From: Tubulanus polymorphus
Lineage: Eukaryota > Nemertea > Palaeonemertea > Tubulaniformes > Tubulanidae
Direction of reading: 5' to 3'
Assembly: GCF_964204645.1 (NCBI RefSeq)
Contig: NC_134033.1
Location: 7,166,231 to 7,230,230 of the forward strand
DNA: 64,000 bases
Shown here: piece by piece, positions 8,040 to 57,310 of the stretch
How positions within the stretch are numbered: position 1 is the first letter of the stretch
Layout of the letters: each line of letters begins with the position of its first letter
Made by a program: the position numbers and the translations under genes
Notes under the pieces: model-generated
What the model was told of the DNA's origin: nothing
Seen by the model: the letters and a program-made list of their open reading frames with translations, nothing else
The model's database searches: none

Positions 8040-8136
8040 TCAGGCCTCAGTGTCATCGCCATCGTGTCCCTTCAAACGCAGCCGGGCAAAATCTTCGAAT
8101 ATCAAATCATCGTCATGGTCAAAGAGCGCTTCACCA
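8040..8136 (-). CDS. ARRB: Beta-arrestin, terminal exon (C-tail, AP2-binding motif)
   Basis: 97-nt last exon: acceptor TTTCAG just before 8136, stop TGA at 8040-8042. It encodes 32 residues, GEALFDHDD followed by DDLIFEDFARLRLKG and an acidic end. The DxxFxxFxxxR pattern is the beta-arrestin motif that binds the beta-appendage of AP2 and drives receptor endocytosis. The second Arg-containing element corresponds to the polar-core arginine (R393 in beta-arrestin-1) that is displaced by receptor phosphates. The residue after FAR is Leu, as in beta-arrestin-2, where it forms part of a nuclear export signal; beta-arrestin-1 has Gln there. The first base completes an AA|T Asn codon from the previous exon. 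The C-tail after KG is short, without the longer tail of vertebrate paralogues. Confidence 0.95.
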
Positions 8137-13437: not shown

Positions 13438-13578
13438 TTTGTTTCAAGTTGTATAAGATTAGTATCTATAGGTGGTTCGTTTGAACCAGGAGCCACTGCG
13501 CTGATTGGTCGACTTGGAGGTGGAGATTCAAGAGGTTTTGGATGCGTGATAGTAAATGGTAACTCAACTGCCAATTCA
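13438..13578 (-). CDS. ARRB: Beta-arrestin, penultimate exon (C-domain end and clathrin-box linker)
   Basis: 141-nt exon between acceptor TTTATTTCAG and donor AAA|GTAAGTG. It begins G|GT Gly then ELAVELPFTITHPKP, the conserved last strand of the arrestin C-domain, then a Pro/Ser-rich linker (ESPPPSRPISAVAPGSNEPP) and DTNLIQLET. LIQLE fits the clathrin-box pattern L-phi-x-phi-(D/E) that binds the clathrin terminal domain; vertebrate beta-arrestins have LIEFE or LIELD here. Phase 2 in, phase 2 out; it joins the terminal exon through an Asn codon. Confidence 0.96.
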
Positions 13579-15421: not shown

Positions 15422-15508
15422 CCTGCTACTAGTCCAAGAATAAGTCGAACTTTCACTTTGTACTGAACAACAATACCAAGATTTTCTTTCTGATTTTGGT
15501 CCGATAAT
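15422..15508 (-). CDS. ARRB: Beta-arrestin exon (C-domain, GIVVQYKVKVRL strand)
   Basis: 87-nt exon with acceptor TTGTTGCAG and donor GG|GTAAGTC. It encodes LSDQNQKENLGIVVQYKVKV then RLILGLVAG, matching the arrestin segment [22 protein letters not shown]. Its first base completes AT|A Ile from the exon at 26696-26842, and its last two bases form a Gly codon with the next exon. The intron upstream is 11.2 kb and filled with repeats. Confidence 0.96.
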
Positions 15509-26695: not shown

Positions 26696-26842
26696 ATAGT
26701 TGATGATGCTAAATTAGTGTCTTCATGTTTCAACTTTCCATCGAGCGCGAGGCCACGTTTGTCTCTATTATTCAACAGCAGTGGAGTCAAATAGTAGACT
26801 TTACAGAAACCTTGAGTGCTCGGCTGTATTGGAAATCCTTCC
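26696..26842 (-). CDS. ARRB: Beta-arrestin exon (C-domain with lariat/gate loop)
   Basis: 147-nt exon, acceptor TTTTTCTAG before 26842 and donor AT|GTAAGC after 26696. It encodes [20 protein letters not shown] then [10 protein letters not shown] and [18 protein letters not shown], the most conserved arrestin signature. The Asp in ALDGK and the Asp in HEDTN correspond to polar-core residues (D290, D297) in the gate loop that hold the C-tail Arg in the inactive state and sense receptor phosphates. The leading G completes GA|G (Glu) with either alternative upstream exon; the trailing AT joins A of the next exon as Ile. The ATG-initiated frame extending to 26892 is read-through into the intron. 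Confidence 0.98.
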
Positions 26843-28805: not shown

Positions 28806-31424
28806 CATAGTATATACATGAAGATGTCACTTTTTCGTACCGTAGCTATTTTGTAACTCTGTAGCTTATTTGCGCATAGGTTCCAATATTTGCTGTTAGG
28901 TGTCGTCTTAAGCACTTTTCCCCACCCTTGCAATTAGTTTTTGTTGCATATTTTTCAATTGCAAAATACCAGGATTTTCACATAATTTTTCCAGATTTTT
29001 TCTCGTCAAACTCACTCTGACAAGTACAATAACAAAAGCAGTGGCAATTTACTGATCACTATCTGGAAAATTTGAAATGTGAAATAAGACTTTTTAGATT
29101 TTAACAGAGCTTGTATAAATCTAGCTCCAGTTTATGCATAGAATAGATCAAAATATTTTTACCAACACGTTATTGGATTTTTCAAACTTCTTCATAATTT
29201 TTCAATTAGACATGTATTTTGAATCTGACCCCTGAAATATATTAAGGCCATTGAATTTTTTTCATGGATGAATGGATGTCTAAGAATTTCTCACAGATAG
29301 GAAGAAAGTATTTCGTGATTTCAAAGGTATCGTTGGACTCATACGTGTGATAAGTAATTGTGATGAAGTACTGTCGTCGATCAGACTGTATGGGCCATTT
29401 ACATTTGGCAACATTAATTTAATGCGGCATAAAATTGAAATCAATCTACAGAACAAAAAAAAATATATATATATCAAAGTTTTCTCTCCTATCATTTATA
29501 TAAAACTCTTGCACTAAGAATGAAAGATACAGCCAAAACGTTTCCATGGCGATACCTAACGGTGAACTCTGGAAGAAGCAACCAAATTAGCTACAATGTT
29601 ACAGAATAGCTACCTAGCTTTAAAGATACACCTTTGGGAATATACTACAGTGAAACAATTATCCTACTTCCGATCAATGGTCTTGTTTTTTGCATGAATC
29701 GCTTCCCATAGTATATCAAGAATCATCGAAATCAACTATAACAATAAAATGGCAAAATTCCTACATTTCAACATGTTTTTATCTAATAAGGGAAACTAGC
29801 AGAAAACACTAATAATCAACTCAAATGGGCCAGTCGCTCAAAAGGTAGGATACAACATGCCTGATGTGTCTGTACATGTATATCTAATTTCATCGAAAAC
29901 ACCAATAACAATCATTATTGATACATATTAATATGTTTTACGTATATAAAATGGGAAACTAGCAGAAACGGGAAACTGGCAGAAACAAGAATAGTCACCT
30001 CGAATGGGCTAGTTGCTCAAAAGTTAACCGCTAGTTGCTATACCTTTCAATATAATTCTTTAGTGGATCCATTTAACCATTGGTTAACCATTGGCTCAAT
30101 TTAGCTTATTTTTGAGCAACCGGCTCCTGATTAATCAATCATTTTCGAGTAAGACATTCTATTTTAGTCACATTCATTGAACATGCTTTGAATTATAATA
30201 ACATTCAAAATTGGTTATGATATGAACAACAATGTTATGATATGTACATATTTTCAATAGACATAATGAAATCACTCTAAATATAAAAGCTTAACTTAAA
30301 TCATCATGTAATAAAAGTTAGAAGATTAAGCTAGCATTGCTCGAGAGGATTGGCAGTTCATACACCACAAGGATGGCCAAGGAAAGTCCCAGTATAAGGG
30401 CCAGTCAAACCCGCATATGCTAAATTACCAATGAGAGGTATTTGTAGAAATCTGCTCAGTGACTTTTTCATATCTGAGAAATTATGAAAAATCTTTAACA
30501 GCTTTCAATCTGGAAATAAGCTTTTTCTAATTGTTAGATTAATAAAGGGGCAGAAAGAAGTTCCATACAGCCTTGTACTGGATCCTCCTCACAAGAGAAA
30601 TTGCCTCTACCGATTTGGCAACAAAGATGCTAGGATTATACTAAAAGATATGTAAATGACTGGAAAGTAAATCTTTATGTGACTGATCCAAATACATAAG
30701 CAAATCACCAGATTATCTTGTGTTGAGATATATTCAATAATTAAGCCTAACAAGTCCTACACCCTATTTAGCCAATTAATTAATTGTCACAATTTGTTGA
30801 AAATTATTTGGGTTTCAACATGAATCTCTTATTGGTGTCAGATTTAACACAGGAAATTGACAAACGCCTCACTGAGCCAGAAATTCTTAGCATGTGCGCA
30901 GGATTGGCTTGGTTAGGTAGGGGCAGGATCATGATGCTAAGTGTGAAGAATGATATGGTTAAAAAAGAAAAACAAGAACAAACAGACGAGTAAATGAATG
31001 ATAAAGAGAACTTGCCTGTTGCTGCTACTGATAGTGAGAAAAAAACAGATACAAATACATCAAAACAATATAGCATCATCATATTATAGCACAGATACAC
31101 AGAGGAAAACTGTTCACACGTCAATTGACATCTAGATCAGATGCCCATTTCATATCGAACATATCCCAGTTTTCTCCTCAAACAATAAACAATAAACAAT
31201 TTATTTTTATTTTTTAGATATCAGGGTTTCCTTTAAGGATTCTTAAACACATACCAGGAAAATGTTTTGATGAATATCAACTTAGAAATTCAGGTTTAAT
31301 ATATGTCAATTGAGTAAACCCCAAGGTTAAATTCAACAATAACCTCAATTTGGACAATAATCTCCAGTGTCACAGGTCAACGGCAAAGATTTTTCACATA
31401 CAATTCCATCACAGATTGCCCGAG
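28806..31424. other. Beta-arrestin intron; local ~160-bp duplication at 29788-30020
   Basis: GGGAAACTAGCAGAAA...TCAAATGGGCCAGTCGCTCAAAAG (29788) recurs diverged at 29951-30020. An open stretch at 30784-30993 (plus) has plausible composition but no recognisable domain or clean splice sites. Otherwise nothing. Confidence 0.4.
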
Positions 31425-34622: not shown

Positions 34623-34695
34623 TCGCTTTCCAGTTCGGCAACAGTGCACTTGTATTGAGCAGTAGAAAACAAACAAATATCGGCGAATTGTCGAA
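34623..34695 (-). CDS. ARRB: Beta-arrestin alternative exon a (VRQFADICLF...)
   Basis: 73-nt exon, acceptor TTTATTTCACAG and donor GCGA|GTAAGT. It encodes (V)RQFADICLFSTAQYKC then TVAELES(E), nearly the vertebrate beta-arrestin sequence RQYADICLF-TAQYKCPVA. Its first two bases complete G|TT Val with the exon at 57226-57310, and its last two form GA|G Glu with the exon at 26842. It has the same length and phases as the exon at 36200-36272, so splicing must choose one of the two. It keeps the Arg (R236 in human beta-arrestin-1) and the Lys in QYKC (K250) of the phosphoinositide/IP6 site. The larger frame over 34536-34976 is read-through. Confidence 0.96.
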
Positions 34696-36199
34696 CTGTG
34701 AAATAATGAAGGATGAACGAAAACTAAACATAAAAAGCTTTTTGATGGGAAAAAAACATCAACATTGATTAAACAATTGTCTAACATACTCAATCTGCTG
34801 TACCTGCCAGTGGCATTTTTCGATACATGAGGTGAAATTGTGCGAAAACCAGTATATATGGTATAACGAAACTCCCTAGAGCTATGTCTATTGAGTTGGA
34901 TCAGGTTTTGAGTAGGTGACGAGTTAAAATCAGTATATGTTTGATTATCTAAATCTAGAGTCAAATCCACAGACACAAAAGTGAAACAAGGAACTGGACA
35001 AGCCAGTCAATGTTGGGGGTTTAAGATTTCAAAATGCTCTCTAAATTGGGGCATTTAACGCTTTAGTTGTGTGATCAGCTTGGACTGGCTTTAAAGGCCT
35101 TAAATTAGAATCGCTATAGGCTAATCTGGTCTAAACAACTTGACAGAAAGCTATGACAAAATAATGTCCTACAGCACACTAATGGCATCTGGTGGACGAC
35201 TTGCTAGTAATATCACCAAACCAAAGGTAGATCATTGAACCTTACAACATCCCCCTTATAGACACAGCCCAGCATAACACCAAATTTTTTAACTAAAATT
35301 CAAAATTGAATTTCCAAAGTGTTGACCATTTTATTACAAAGTTTTCATAATCCCATTAAAACCTTTTTGTCGTTCAATTTCACTTTCAAGGCAAAGCAGA
35401 TTTTTTTCATAGCTAAAAAAGAGATTTGAAAAACAGAGCTAAAAGAGAGTTGACAGGCGAAAAACATACATATTTCTAAACAACAGCAGTGAGAAAAATC
35501 AATGAATGAATACATAATTGACATTGAGATAATAAAAATCATCAAACTCTGTGAAGCGTGATGTACCAGATGTGTGATGTCAGCCCTGGCAGGATAGTTA
35601 AAATATCTGTTGAAAGGATCTGTGATGCGCAAGTAAAAAGTAAGACATTTTTCATTGAATTTTGATTGAAGCAACTATACCAAAGGCTGCAAATATTGAT
35701 GTCAGAACATTTTTAAAAAATGCATCCAAGAAGATGCAATCTTTAAGAGGATGATATTTAAATCTTCCCCTGCCATGGTCGAACTAAAAGTGGAATGAAT
35801 GTGAAGAAACTATCATATCTAAAATTACAGAAATCATCACAGCTGCCAAGGCATAACAAGCAACAACCAGAACCCTGTTACACAGATGTGAGTTAAAACT
35901 TGACCCTCTAGGTAAGGTTATCGAAAATAAAATAATTTCAACTTTCTAAACTCAAAACCATAGCATACTCGTCACACAAGTTATAAAGAATTCTTTGGAA
36001 TTAAAACAATTGGAAATGAATTAAATTTGCGTCAAACTTAACTCACATGTAATGCTAGGGCCAGAACAACAGTTTACACGTCTGGTACATCAATACTACG
36101 TAAAATTAAATACTGAAAATAAAAACCAATAAAAATAATATTGACAAAAACGCAACATATACAAATAATGGGATAATCCTGGTAGGTGGCACCACTTAC

Positions 36200-36272
36200 T
36201 CCGTCTCCAGTTCGGCAACTGTACATTTATAGTTAGCTTTACTGAACAGCATAATGTCAGCGATTTGAACAA
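36200..36272 (-). CDS. ARRB: Beta-arrestin alternative exon b (VVQIADIMLF...)
   Basis: 73-nt exon, acceptor GCTGCAG and donor CGGA|GTAAGTG. It encodes (V)VQIADIMLFSKANYKC then TVAELET(E). 15 of 23 complete codons specify the same residue as in exon a, and the frame is intact with good splice sites, so it looks functional. Phases and length match exon a exactly; as 73 is not a multiple of 3, including both or neither breaks the frame. Differences from exon a: Arg to Val directly after the first Val, Phe to Ile, Cys to Met, Leu kept, TAQ to KAN. It lies 1.5 kb upstream of exon a in the direction of transcription. Confidence 0.93.
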
Positions 36273-36840
36273 CTGCAGCGATGAGGAAGGAAAAAGAGAA
36301 GCAAGTATTAATGAATGTTTATTATCATTGAGCATAAATATAATGCATGAGCTCAGTGTATAAAGCACACATGAGCAAGCAATGTTCAAGTTCATACCCA
36401 AATTAACCTATTCACATAACCCCTCATCTTGTGTATGCGGTTGGTTTGACGTTGGACTTATCAGATGTGGCCCAATGGGATGTGGAATGAATTGTGGGGC
36501 TAATGAGTTATGGGCCTATTGAGAGGATATAGGAACAGTGTAAATAAGTAGTTGCTTACATATGTTGGCAATATAGCAGTAAAATGATTTGCCACATGCA
36601 CCAGAGTTTGCTATGCTCGGTTCACGCACACAACTTTTTGAAGTGAAGTTGATGAGTTGACTCAACTTCCTGATTACTGTACTATTGACCCAAGTAGAAA
36701 ATAAACATAGTTGTATCAAAATGCACGCTCATGCACACAGCAATAAACCAGGTGAGTGAAGAAACAGATCAAGTATCTGCAATAAGTACAGAAGATTTTG
36801 TATCAATAAAAAGTTCAAAACATGCCATTTTTACCAGAAC
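36273..36840. other. Beta-arrestin intron upstream of exon b
   Basis: No further copy of the 73-nt exon was seen here. Nothing else recognised. Confidence 0.4.
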
Positions 36841-36849
36841 AATACAGTT

Positions 36850-37245
36850 CCTTTTCATATTATCATACACATATCATAAAAATTTCATGAATTTATCGCA
36901 ACGGTTTGGCGAGTCATCGTATATACGGGAAGTTCCTGCGTCAAAGGTAGATGGTGTCGGCCATCTTGAATTGGAGAAGTCCCCAAAACAATAAGGTTTC
37001 ACATCATACTATCATACATATCTCATATAAATTTCATGAAATGTTCTCAAACGATTTTTGGCACGTACATTGGTAGTTCACATATCAAAAATAGGTCATA
37101 ATTCGGCCATCTTGAATCATAGATTCCCCAAAAGGGTTCCCCACCATACAATTATGCACAAACCATAAAAATTTCACGAAATTGTCTCAAACGATTTTTG
37201 AGTTATCGTGTACACAGGAGGCTCCCGTGTCAAAAGTAGGACAGT
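36850..37245. repeat. Tandem ~125-130-bp minisatellite, about 3 units
   Basis: Units share CATAAAAATTTCATGAAAT, CTCAAACGATTTTTG and GGCCATCTTGAAT, starting near 36880, 37015 and 37145. The right edge (GAGCGCTCACTTCAAATCCAAG) is shared with ~16840. Confidence 0.65.
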
Positions 37246-39077: not shown

Positions 39078-42000
39078 CATATGTGACTGGTGCTGGCAAA
39101 ATCAGTCGGAAGTCGCATTCATTCACTAAGCGTTATAGGCTATTTACTGCAGTCAGTGTTGAAAATATCGAATTTCAGTTTTCACTATTAGGCTATACTT
39201 TAAAAAGTTTAACTTTAAATGCTTCAAACATCGTTTTTAATTGGGGGTATTGAATCAATCATAATCAACATAGTCTCTAAAACAATCGAAATTAGCGGTC
39301 TATTTCACCTAAAATATTTTTACAATCAGTAGTCTGAATGGCACAAACCGGCTATTGATCGACAGCTCAGAAGTAGTGCTAAATGAAAATCAGCGTAAGA
39401 ATATCGAAATACGTCATTAAAAGCCAATGAGAGGGCTTGAAAGATCTGTAAACAATTCCCTTTGTTGAACGCAAGCCGAGCGTGTGATGTAAGCTGATCG
39501 CTGGTTGGCTTATCAACGCATCGCGCATTGCACACTGGGCAAAAAAACATGGCTGCCGTCGTAAACAAACGCAACAGTTAATTTCATTCTACTTGTTTTG
39601 AAAAGATTTCTCCTTTATTCTTGTTTAAATTCGTTGATAATAATGTCACTATCGAAGGAAAAACGTGTCGCGGATTCGTTGAACAGTCTGAGATCGTGCA
39701 ATTTGGAGTCACCGGCAATCGAAAGGCAGTGGTTGACACTTTTGGAGGATTATTTTGTTAATGATGTCGATGATGAGTGTGTTTCCTCTTCGTCAGAAGG
39801 ATCTTCAGATGAAGAAAGTGACACTGAAAACGATGTAAATAGATCTGTTTATAACTCCGTACCTGTTAATAACACTATTGTTTCACCGAATTCTAATGTC
39901 CTGTCAAAATCGTCATGTTCTGCGGCTACGCCAGGTCCAACATTGACGGCTCGACGAGTAAATAATGATACTGTTGGTGACCACTATCCAGCTACAAATC
40001 AGAGGATAGTTAGTGACAACGAAGACTCTTCTGCTGAAGATGATACTGCGGACGTCGTGGATGGTGTTCCTGAGATTCTCCGTGATGTGCCGGCTACTGC
40101 GAATAATCCTCGAGAAGAACTAACCAGAATTGAAAATTTCTCGTGTGTGTCCAGCTCATCGAAAAATAGCTGTAAACTAAATGATGGAAAGCCTTGTTTT
40201 TCATCCTTCGATAAAGATGAAATCTTTGATCTCAGAATGTCAATGAGTGCGTTAACTGCATTTGAGAAGGACTTAATGATTCTGGGCAAGTTGGGATCAT
40301 TTATGCGTAATGACTCGTTGACTGCATGTTCAAAACGAAAGACGCAGAAAGAATGAAAACAGCAGAGAACATGGTATTTCGTCCTCGGTCATCGATGTTG
40401 TCGTGAAACCTTCAAATTTGTTCACTGGTAAGTAGGCCTAATTTTTTAATTCTTTTTAATAAGAATAAAACCACTTATTTTTACAACATGTACAACAAAC
40501 CATGTCAATGATGGATGTAGGCCCTATATGCACGCGCTGTTTCCTTGACGTCTGAACTCGATAACAGTAGGTAGCTTTGAATGAAGAACGTGAGATAGGC
40601 CCAATGACAATATTCAAATGTACGGCTTTTGTTTTCAGGGACTTAAGTTTTTGGTTAAATATTTACTGGTTATTAATTATAACCCCTTTCTTTTCAGCAT
40701 GAGCCAAGACAAACTTACAGCCTTGATCAAGCATTATAAAGAGCATGGTATGACGCCACGTTACAAAAAGTCTGGTGGGCGCCGGGAGAACAACAAGCAC
40801 ATTATCACATACGATGATACGTCTCGCGTTGTGACATTTTTGATGAACTTCGCAGAAATGCATTCGATGGTCCTGCCTGGTAGAGTGCCTGGTTATAAGC
40901 GTTTCAACATTAAGTTGCTACCCTCCAGCATGACAAAAGCAAGCATTTGGAGGAACTATAAACAAGCTATGATTTCGACAGGTAAGCTTTCATAGATTAT
41001 CACAGGCATCCAATTAATTTTTAATCTTTTTCAAAAAACTACACGTCAAGCGAAATTCTGTACTTAAGTCGGGTTTCAATGCCAACACAAACTAATTTAA
41101 TGTACCCGACGTGCTATGGAAGTTGGATCAAATTGCCAACTGTTATAGGCGTTGTGTAAAATGAAGCAATCAAATTCATAACGTTTATCCCATTTCAGAC
41201 TTTAGGCATCAAGATTTAGTTATGTGACGGACTAACTGCACTGAGTTCTGTATCAGGAAATTGATAGGTTTCAATGTTTATTTTTCAGAGAATCGAGCAG
41301 TCAGCCTTCATTCCTTCAGAAGATTGTGGCGTACATTAGTTCCGTTTATTGTTATGAACCGCCCAATGACAGACTTATGCTGGGTGTGCCAACAGAATAA
41401 CTCCACTATATACCGTAGTGTGAACATCCCAGAGGAATTAAAATCTGAAAATCTGAAAAAACAGGAGGCGCATTTAGTAAAAGTTACGCTCGAGCGTAGT
41501 CTGTACCAGAAAATGGTTTCAAACTGTAAGACGGTTGTCAAAGGCCTTGGCCTTAAGAATTTGGAGAACAGTCCTCCAGCATCACGCGATGTTAAAATGC
41601 ATTATAGTTTTGACTTCGCGCAACAGGTTCATTACCCGAATGACCCTTACCTACCCGGACCCATGTATTTTGTTAGAGGTACGAATAGCTCATAGAGAGC
41701 CTCATCAGGAGTTACGTGTAACAACCAAATCTAGGATGAGAACTTTAGTAGATACAACGAGCGACACGTCGATTCTTTTTAGAGATTAGATTTCATGCTA
41801 TTAAACGAGTATTTAGGAGAATATATTGGTCAAAAACATGTAAGTTTAACCAGTTAATTTGTATTCTATTGTATTTGATAATGAATGTTTTAAATAGGAA
41901 ATTAATCAAAGATCAGTGTGCAAATTTATTTAAGATCAGAGTTTAAATTCTATATGTTATTAATTTCAGATCAGCATTTCATCATTTCATGTTCGTTATG

Positions 42001-43835
42001 TCTCGATATTAAAATCCAATATAAATATAAATCCTAAAGAAAGGTCTTCTTCACATTAATGGAGCCAACTACATATTTCCTGACACCACGTAAGTGTGGG
42101 CTATTTGGAATTGTGTGAAGGGTTACCACAGTAGGTGAATTATTTGATTGACGAGATTGTTTGCGTATCTAAGGGATCAAACAGCGTCATAAGCTACTTG
42201 GACCATTTTTTCGATAACCACGGTTTAGGGGAAATGGATGTCGAACTGCACTGTGACGACTGTAGTGGCCAGAATAAGAACAATTTCAAGAAATATCACC
42301 ATTTTAGGTAGGTATCTGTACACGAAGTCCTAATGAAAAATCAAATTTGACACAGGGTTGCGGGTTCAAATTCTAATAGCAAGAGAGTATCATATCGGTA
42401 TCTGCTTTGGATGGCAATCGGTGGTTAAATAATAATAATAATTATGATTATTATAGATGACAGAATTTTGAGAAAAATAGATCACTGCCCTATACCTGTT
42501 TTGTATAGTGATAATGTTTTTGCAGCCTAGAAGAATACAACTTTTGATTAACGGACTATTATTCAAAATATTTACTTTCTTATATTTTCAGATTTGACAG
42601 TAATCATCCAGGAAAGGTGTTTAGAAAGTTGTATGCGGATTCAGCGGAAGAAGTATTCACCCTTGCTATCGATCCGAATGTGATACCGCACAACACAAAA
42701 CCGGACATTATTCCTCCACCTGGATTATCGGCAGAAAGACAGTTGTACCTGTACCAAAAAATCCGGGAATTCTGCAGTGTTGAAACTAGAGACATAGCTT
42801 GTCCGTTACCGCAGGCTTTACCAGCTGCACCACAAGACTTACCTGTACCTGTAGTTGTTCCTTCCACTAGTGACTTGCCGGTACCATCAGATTCTGACAG
42901 TGATGCTGACTTTGCTCCTCCACCAGCGAAACGCGGGCGTGGTCGAGGTCGTGGACGAGGTCGTGGTAATAATCAGTAGATCAATACTAAATACCTTTTG
43001 ATTGTGAATCAAATAGGATTATCTTGCAGCAATCGGGGGCAGAAATCTATATAGTCCATTTTCTGGATTTGTGAAATCAGTGTTTCGAAGTGAATTAAAC
43101 TTGATAGTAATCAGCCGTTTTCACTGTCAAGTTCCATATGTAGCTCCAGAGATACACTTTATACAGGCATATGTGATAATTGTATTCTAATTGGTTGATC
43201 TGTGCAGTTTCGCTGTTGTTAGTGATGAAATAATAATTGAGTTGAATATTATGAAGATAAAAATTTTCATTTATTGCCGATTTTATCTAGTTCCTGGATG
43301 GACTGCTGCTCTCATTTTAAATTCAAAATACTTTCTTATAATAAGTGTTATATGCTCTAGAATCATAAACAATGACTTATTTATTTGGTATAGTGCAATA
43401 ATAAGTCACATTACTCAGAAAAATTCAATTAACTGTGAAATCTAATTTTTCCGAAAATATTTTTTTCTTCAAATTTAGTCATTTTCTATCATCCTAAAAA
43501 AAGTACCAATCCAGGAACTATATTTTTGCTTGAAAAACAAAGGGGATGATGTCTCGTACCCCTGGTAAAAATTTGGGGTCGATATCTCTATTCTAAGATA
43601 CTGGTTGCTATGGTGGATTGATATTTCTAAGTACCGAGACTTTAACCCTCGATTTCTCAGAATCCTTTTCCGCTGACTTAGTCTTCAAAATTTAATAACT
43701 CAGTGAGTTTTCGAGATATCAACATAATTTTTTTTGCATTGAATTCCACACAATTGTGGCTTTCAGAATATGTATAGTACTCAATTTTGATAAGGTGACA
43801 CAAGTGACTGATTTTGCCAGCACCGGTCACATATG
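39078..43835 (+). mobile_element. 4.76-kb DNA transposon with 30-bp TIRs and DUF7869-type transposase gene
   Basis: 39078-39107 and 43806-43835 are inverted repeats of 30 bp with one mismatch, core GGTGCTGGCAAAATCAGTC. They bracket a single five-exon transposase gene with ~560 bp of 5' and ~830 bp of 3' flank inside the element. The outermost six bases are the palindrome CATATG on both sides, so target duplication and terminus cannot be separated: TA, ATAT and CATATG are all possible. No other copy of these ends was seen in the window. It sits in the long arrestin intron, in the opposite orientation to that gene. Confidence 0.88.
39643..42979 (+). pseudogene. DUF7869-family transposase-like gene, five exons, inactivated
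   Basis: Exons: 39643-40427, 40698-40981, 41289-41678, about 42060-42307, 42592-42979. Exon 1 (ATG 39643) is a long acidic Ser/Asp-rich N-terminus ending in a Cys-containing block (CKLNDGKPCFSSFDKDEI) and LGHRCCRETFKFVH. Exon 2 has PGRVPGYKRFNIKLLPSSMTK. Exon 3 has MTDLCWVCQQNN (CxxC) and MHYSFDFAQQVHYP with a putative first catalytic Asp. Exon 4 has TPRKCGLFG, NYLIDE and HCDDCSGQNKNN with the second Asp. Exon 5 has PPPGLSAERQLYLYQKIREF and an RG-repeat basic tail. This order matches uncharacterised DUF7869-type proteins common in invertebrate and fish genomes. Lesions: TGA at 40354-40356 inside exon 1, a frameshift near 42115, TAG at 42132-42134, and direct fusion of the SGQNKNN block to KKYHHFRF, removing about 150 residues with the third catalytic residue. 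The exon 4 acceptor is unclear. The 252-codon reading from 39598 uses a TTG; the true start is the ATG at 39643. Confidence 0.85.
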
Positions 43836-57225: not shown

Positions 57226-57310
57226 CTGATATCTTGATCTTTTTGACACTTTTACTTGTGTTATTATCAACTAAAACGTTTACAGCAATTGATTCACCAT
57301 GGTAATATTT
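57226..57310 (-). CDS. ARRB: Beta-arrestin exon (KYYHGE...VKKIKIS, start of C-domain)
   Basis: 85-nt exon, acceptor ATTTTTCAG and donor ATCAG|GTATGT. It encodes [20 protein letters not shown] then SVKKIKIS, matching arrestin [29 protein letters not shown]. The final G plus TT of either 73-nt exon gives Val. The Lys before Ile-Ser is the first residue of the phosphoinositide/IP6 triad (K232 in beta-arrestin-1). The preceding exon must end in phase 0 and was not found before position 64000. The intron to exon b is about 21 kb and contains the DUF7869-type transposon. Confidence 0.97.

Follow-up and report, generated by a model that had tools for sequence, protein, structure and literature searches.

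Mutually exclusive exons are well known and include those of G-protein alpha genes, such as GNAO exons 7-8 and the cephalochordate preGNAI/Q/S exons described in the accessible part of one report (PMC5896119). In those genes, as in the gene described here, tandem duplication in a GPCR-signalling protein gave rise to alternative versions of an interface segment; the family is different, and in the present case the duplicated unit is a 73-nt internal arrestin exon. The word arrestin appears a single time in that report, whose accessible part contains no description of arrestin exons.

Isoforms of single arrestin genes are also known from the splice variants of vertebrates. One of these concerns exon 13 of ARRB1, which probably corresponds to residues 334-341, located at the edge of the C-lobe. 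According to the passages available to us, the short form of beta-arrestin-1 arises from the long form by skipping of this exon (PMC12116798) and the visual arrestin p44 is C-terminally truncated (PMC11173308), whereas in the present gene a folded segment is exchanged for a homologous one. The first-pass annotation of this DNA had placed the known vertebrate variants in the tail, which does not hold for the long and short forms of beta-arrestin-1. Among the papers listed by searches of the open literature on arrestin splicing and on arrestin in nemerteans, none was found to report homologous exons used as alternatives within an arrestin gene.

A beta-arrestin gene with two versions of exon 9

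The window, a stretch of 64,000 nucleotides from Tubulanus polymorphus (contig NC_134033.1, positions 7,166,231 to 7,230,230), carries on its minus strand the 3' half of a beta-arrestin gene, comprising exons 8, 9B, 9A, a microexon and exons 10-13. All exon coordinates below are minus-strand features in window numbering. Exons 2-7 are located upstream, outside the window (85435-70060 in window numbering), and the sequence examined consisted of the window and 40 kb upstream (104 kb). Exon 1, which encodes MASSGDNAA... in NCBI isoform X2, was not found in the stretch of the window's contig that was examined. Exon 8 (57226..57310, 85 nt) ends in ...KKIKIS in phase 1 and is the upstream partner common to 9A and 9B. 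Their common downstream partner is exon 10 (26696..26842, 147 nt), which presumably encodes the lariat/gate-loop region. It is followed by exon 11 (15422..15508, 87 nt), exon 12 (13438..13578, 141 nt) and exon 13 (8040..8136, 97 nt, coding to the stop). Exon 12 carries LIQLE, presumably a clathrin-box-like motif, and exon 13 carries DDDLIFEDFARLRLKG, which we take to be an AP2-type motif; both align with the tail of human beta-arrestin. When the protein containing 9B (isoform B) was compared with solved structures, the best match was beta-arrestin-1 (E 5.5e-166, 555.8 bits, residues 7-404 of beta-arrestin-1). The best visual arrestin among the matches listed scored 424.6 bits, so that the protein is more similar overall to beta-arrestins than to visual arrestins. 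The gene product is predicted to be a full-length beta-arrestin of the non-visual kind, with putative clathrin- and AP2-type motifs.

Exon 9 was present in two versions. Exon 9B (36200..36272, VVQIADIMLFSKANYKCTVAELET) is the alternative version, which is found in NCBI isoform X2, and exon 9A (34623..34695, VRQFADICLFSTAQYKCTVAELES) is the common version. Both are 73 nt long, have the same entry and exit phases, are preceded by AG and are followed by the same donor (GA/gtaagt). They are identical at 49 of 73 nucleotides (67%) and at 18 of 24 amino acids. The alignable stretch consists of the exon and its splice sites alone (82 nt, 71%), and this end of the similarity at the splice sites fits an old duplication. 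The two exons have diverged strongly at silent sites and little in protein (dN 0.28 and dS 1.96 by NG86; the maximum-likelihood dS of 9.5 is saturated). When the 9A peptide was searched in six frames of the 104 kb, the top match besides 9A itself was 9B, with a BLOSUM62 score of 85 compared with 31 for the next match. The interval between exons 8 and 10 contains 90 segments of the form AG-73nt-GT, including 9A and 9B, and 20 of them are open in phase. With so many such segments in the interval, length and phase alone are no evidence, and it is the homology of 9A and 9B that counts as evidence. Searches for a further copy of exon 9, including one of the genome with the full protein, found none. 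These results bear out the first-pass annotation, which had described two 73-nt exons with the same phases and intact splice sites, encoding homologous versions of one C-domain segment.

Splicing of exon 8 to either 9A or 9B singly resulted in an open frame of 409 residues from exon 2 to the natural stop in exon 13. When both or neither of the two exons were included, a stop appeared 333 or 319 nt, respectively, before the last exon junction, as expected from the earlier claim that such transcripts are frameshifted. From established rules, these transcripts should undergo nonsense-mediated decay. The microexon, being 12 nt in length, does not affect this frame logic. The intron between 9B and 9A is 1504 nt long and both exons have gtaagt donors, so that steric or U12-type blocking of joint inclusion is unlikely; strict exclusivity would be imposed by the reading frame. 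Adjacent, homologous, matched in phase and in splice sites, and disrupting the frame when both or neither are used, 9A and 9B are in these respects as expected of a mutually exclusive exon pair.

Several other elements were observed around the pair. An inverted repeat in the 9B-9A intron (35559-35575 / 36076-36092, 17 nt, 94% complementary) may pair in the pre-mRNA; it was obtained from a generic scan and can be judged only alongside related sequences. A short repeat family with a spacing of 140-149 nt occupies 36840-37239, a few hundred nucleotides upstream of exon 9B. No Pfam match at E 0.01 was obtained for five open reading frames of 120-252 aa (39598-42979 on the plus strand and 1248-1928 on the minus strand); the first four sit within the intron that precedes exon 9B, and a mobile element may account for them. 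Scans of the window with Rfam (gathering threshold) and for tRNAs gave no match.

Of the 104 kb, about 99.9 kb aligned with a second contig of 181 kb (C17) in nine main blocks with 98.5-99.5% identity, the 50-kb block holding 9A and 9B being 99.3% identical. Both exons were present on C17 in unchanged order and with identical sequence. Ten of the 13 exons, 9A and 9B among them, were identical between the two contigs, and the six differences (exons 4, 7 and 10) were all silent. C17 is the other haplotype, that is, an uncollapsed allele and no second gene. A genome search with the full protein, in which all 26 candidates were scored, gave 25 matches; 24 were located on the two haplotype copies and one weak match (E 0.376) was located elsewhere. 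A second exon 4, an exon that a visual arrestin would be expected to match well, was not found in this search. Furthermore, a genome search with a squid visual-arrestin fragment (6/6 candidates) returned only 9A, 9B and exon 10, on both haplotypes. On these searches, a visual arrestin gene is likely to be absent from this genome. Pfam arrestin-domain matches elsewhere in the genome, which the beta-arrestin query did not recover, are probably alpha-arrestin-type genes.

Evidence on the use and conservation of the two exons

The gene model was compared with the annotated Tubulanus protein. The isoform compared was X2 only, taken from a protein collection clustered at 90% identity. The last 412 residues of NCBI Tubulanus polymorphus 'arrestin red cell-like isoform X2' were the same as those of the model with 9B and the microexon and without 9A. 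This match implies, by annotation, the junctions 57226>36272, 36200>31027 and 31016>26842. The first-pass annotation had named the junction from 57226 to 36272, which is present in X2 at this level, and that from 36200 to 26842, which in the annotation passes through the microexon (31027-31016). The microexon (31016..31027, 12 nt, TAGCAGCAACAG) is located between 9A and exon 10 and has the acceptor AG and the donor GC; it replaces E with DSSNR, a net gain of four residues, just before exon 10. An exon of 12 nt with a GC donor is unlikely to have been predicted without transcripts. Short insertions (DNSR, ESR) were also observed at the microexon junction in Haliotis (P0117) and in P0116, which suggests that an optional micro-insertion at this position may be old.

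Exon 9A also appears to be used in Tubulanus, because all 24 residues that it encodes recur unchanged in the corresponding segment of Mytilus, Biomphalaria, Haliotis and Idiosepius. An X2 label implies that some other isoform exists, although not that this other isoform holds 9A. One Tubulanus gene probably makes two different arrestins by means of 9A and 9B, as had been proposed; the form with B and without A is the annotated one, and the identity with the molluscs points to the form with A.

To describe the distribution of the two types, 23 distinct arrestins were read, all of them from two region-limited protein searches (16 of 22 candidates passed in one and 9 of 20 in the other, two of them overlapping). 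The exon 9 segment was B-type in five and A-type in 18. The type was called by Arg236, so the split at this position holds by definition; besides Arg236, all 18 A-type segments had Phe/Tyr238, Cys242 and Gln248, and 17 of them had Thr246. All five B-type segments had a residue other than Arg at 236, Ile/Val at 238, Met/Ile/Val at 242, Lys at 246 and Asn/Ser at 248. They belong to Tubulanus polymorphus X2 (VVQIADIMLFSKANYKC; Palaeonemertea), Lineus longissimus X2 (VLQIADIMLFSKANYKC; Pilidiophora), Watersipora subatra (VIQVSDIILFSKASYKC; Bryozoa, an entry without isoform suffix), protein P0113 (VFQVSDIVLFSKASYKC) and Lingula anatina X3 (P0123, VHQVSDIILFSKGSYTS; Brachiopoda). Of the duplicated exon, which the first-pass annotation had suggested looking for in related genomes, the B-type segment occurs in four proteins besides that of Tubulanus; A and B together were seen in Tubulanus only. 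No other species with A beside B was seen among the 23 arrestins of the collection clustered at 90% identity; this clustering may hide B isoforms of other species, so that the lack of B among molluscs and annelids does not amount to absence.

Tubulanus 9B and the Lineus B segment were identical at 23 of 24 residues. This difference of one residue places the origin of B before the split of Palaeonemertea and Pilidiophora. As judged from these alignments, exon B is constrained and old within Nemertea, and its origin is likely to be deep, in the lophotrochozoans. When conservation relative to Mytilus was compared between exon 9 and the flanking exons in 19 of the 23 proteins (P0104, P0105, P0106 and P0108, all A-type, were left out), exon 9 was significantly less conserved only in Lingula (p=0.0004); the corresponding values were 0.079 for Tubulanus, 0.23 for Lineus, 0.34 for P0113 and 0.38 for Watersipora. 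A tree of the 24 residues was built from 18 proteins out of the 19 in the alignment, to which Tubulanus A and five reference segments were added. It did not recover B as one clade, with 2 of 16 inner branches well supported from the 24 columns, and the B rows fell between those of A and those of the vertebrate visual arrestins.

The exchanged segment

The exon 9 segment corresponds to residues 235-258 of beta-arrestin-1, namely strand beta15, the C-loop and strand beta16, and from position 235 onwards its first 23 to 24 residues aligned with human beta-arrestin-1 without a gap. The alignment agrees with the earlier claim that the isoforms differ in the folded core. The changes from A to B are Arg236Val, Phe238Ile, Cys242Met, Thr246Lys and Gln248Asn in beta-arrestin-1 numbering. 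Tubulanus B retains K232 (encoded by exon 8), D240, Y249 and K250, whereas R236 is lost and K246 is gained. Among the key basic residues K232, R236 and K250, one of three is lost in Tubulanus B and two (R236 and K250) are lost in Lingula B.

Several reports, each seen in excerpt, describe the functions of these positions. The PIP2 headgroup is bound by K232, R236, K250, K324 and K326 (PMC10447241), and the placing of R236 and K250 in this site with K232, K324 and K326 is also given in PMC10686989, PMC11467438, PMC10866553 and PMC8733679; R236 is a mapped PIP2/IP6 ligand. The K232Q/R236Q/K250Q substitutions lowered the potency of glucagon 15-fold (PMC10447241), and the PIP2-induced change of the gate loop was, in the excerpt concerned, not seen with this triple mutant (PMC10686989). 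Against the simple expectation, PIP2 altered the hydrogen exchange of beta-arrestin-2 at beta18 and, as far as the available text goes, not in the beta15/beta16 peptides (PMC11467438). As for the receptor, ICL1 or ICL2 is contacted in various complexes by I241, L243, F244 and N245-T246 of the C-loop and by Y249 of strand 16, the contact of N245-T246 being from one neurotensin-receptor complex (PMC10866553, Table 1).

Through the loss of R236 and the gain of K246, B carries less positive charge at the lipid site and more in the receptor-facing C-loop. Tubulanus B still has two of the three key basic residues, so the effect on lipid binding may be modest. Many arrestin studies compare distinct genes or rely on engineered mutants, whereas 9A and 9B are apparently a natural swap of the beta15/C-loop/beta16 cassette. 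This cassette holds two of the three residues of the PIP2-deficient 3Q mutant as well as the loop touching the receptor intracellular loops, and the pair offers a natural experiment on lipid tethering and C-loop contacts.

Interpretation of the exon pair

We consider it probable that 9A and 9B are a functional, old, mutually exclusive homologous pair in the sole beta-arrestin gene found, and that their isoforms differ in lipid tether and receptor contact. Splicing in of 9A or 9B would swap the segment of residues 235-258 and leave the remaining protein unchanged, the A form being the common beta-arrestin version, presumably used too, and transcripts with both or neither would be removed by nonsense-mediated decay. 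The B form would have a weaker C-lobe phosphoinositide tether and an altered C-loop contact with the receptor intracellular loops, and the two isoforms might differ in how long they stay at the membrane, in their endocytic routing or in the receptors they choose. If so, one beta-arrestin gene supplies distinct receptor-handling proteins by splicing.

Many duplicated exons get lost, as is generally known, and 9B might be a decayed copy, or a neutral one, that enters transcripts only now and then. This is very improbable, because its splice sites and frame are intact on both haplotypes, it is an exon of X2, and the near identity with Lineus B extends across the Palaeonemertea-Pilidiophora divide. 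Conversely, 9B might be the working exon and 9A a relic, leaving Tubulanus with effectively one isoform; the X2 proteins of Tubulanus and Lineus, the sole sequences read for each, contain B, and the B-type entry of Watersipora bears no isoform suffix. We consider this improbable, since 9A matches four molluscs residue for residue and is in frame, with good splice sites, intact on both haplotypes; the X2 label also implies another isoform, though not its 9A content.

The stops in transcripts with both or neither exon would suit a pair that is mainly a switch of expression via nonsense-mediated decay, in which the protein differences hardly matter. However, B's own residues are kept in Lineus, with similar classes in Lingula and Watersipora, which argues for selection on the protein, and we give little credence to such a switch. 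The near-identical second copy of the locus on C17 might raise the suspicion that the pair reflects an artefact of assembly or a piece of another arrestin gene, but the nine blocks with both exons in the same order identify that copy as the other haplotype, 9A and 9B are only 67% identical, and the full protein found no further arrestin exons in the genome beyond the one weak match. This explanation is extremely improbable.

Another reading is that a pair of early-lophotrochozoan origin allows the single beta-arrestin to be made either in a standard version or in a visual-like one whose phosphoinositide site is partly lost. Worms without a visual arrestin gene would then use B in photoreceptors or in cells needing arrest without endocytosis. 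Indeed, B resembles visual arrestins in having no Arg at 236 (Glu in rod and cone arrestins, Ile in squid) and an aliphatic residue at 238. The segment is VEQVTN/DVVL in rod/cone arrestins and IIQLADICL in squid visual arrestin, which retains Cys242 and Lys250. According to partial texts, conservation of the high-affinity IP6 site is loose or lacking in both visual arrestins of vertebrates (PMC5501109), and GPCR endocytosis is not supported by visual arrestin (PMC9681205). If this reading holds, the gene would be comparable to the single arrestin gene of Ciona, which has visual and non-visual features (background of PMC5501109); an exon pair is not mentioned in the part of that paper available to us. 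However, visual arrestins are separate genes, and outside this segment the Tubulanus protein resembles beta-arrestins, with the clathrin- and AP2-type motifs. In a comparison of the Lingula B segment and its flanks (58 residues in all) with solved structures, the best match was squid visual arrestin (49.3 bits, compared with 40.1 bits for the best beta-arrestin), a match that owes part of its score to the shared EGFPI flank. In Tubulanus, the squid visual-arrestin fragment scored 20.7 bits with A and 20.4 bits with B. B is consequently no closer than A to squid visual arrestin, which makes the visual-like reading less probable, and we regard it as unlikely.
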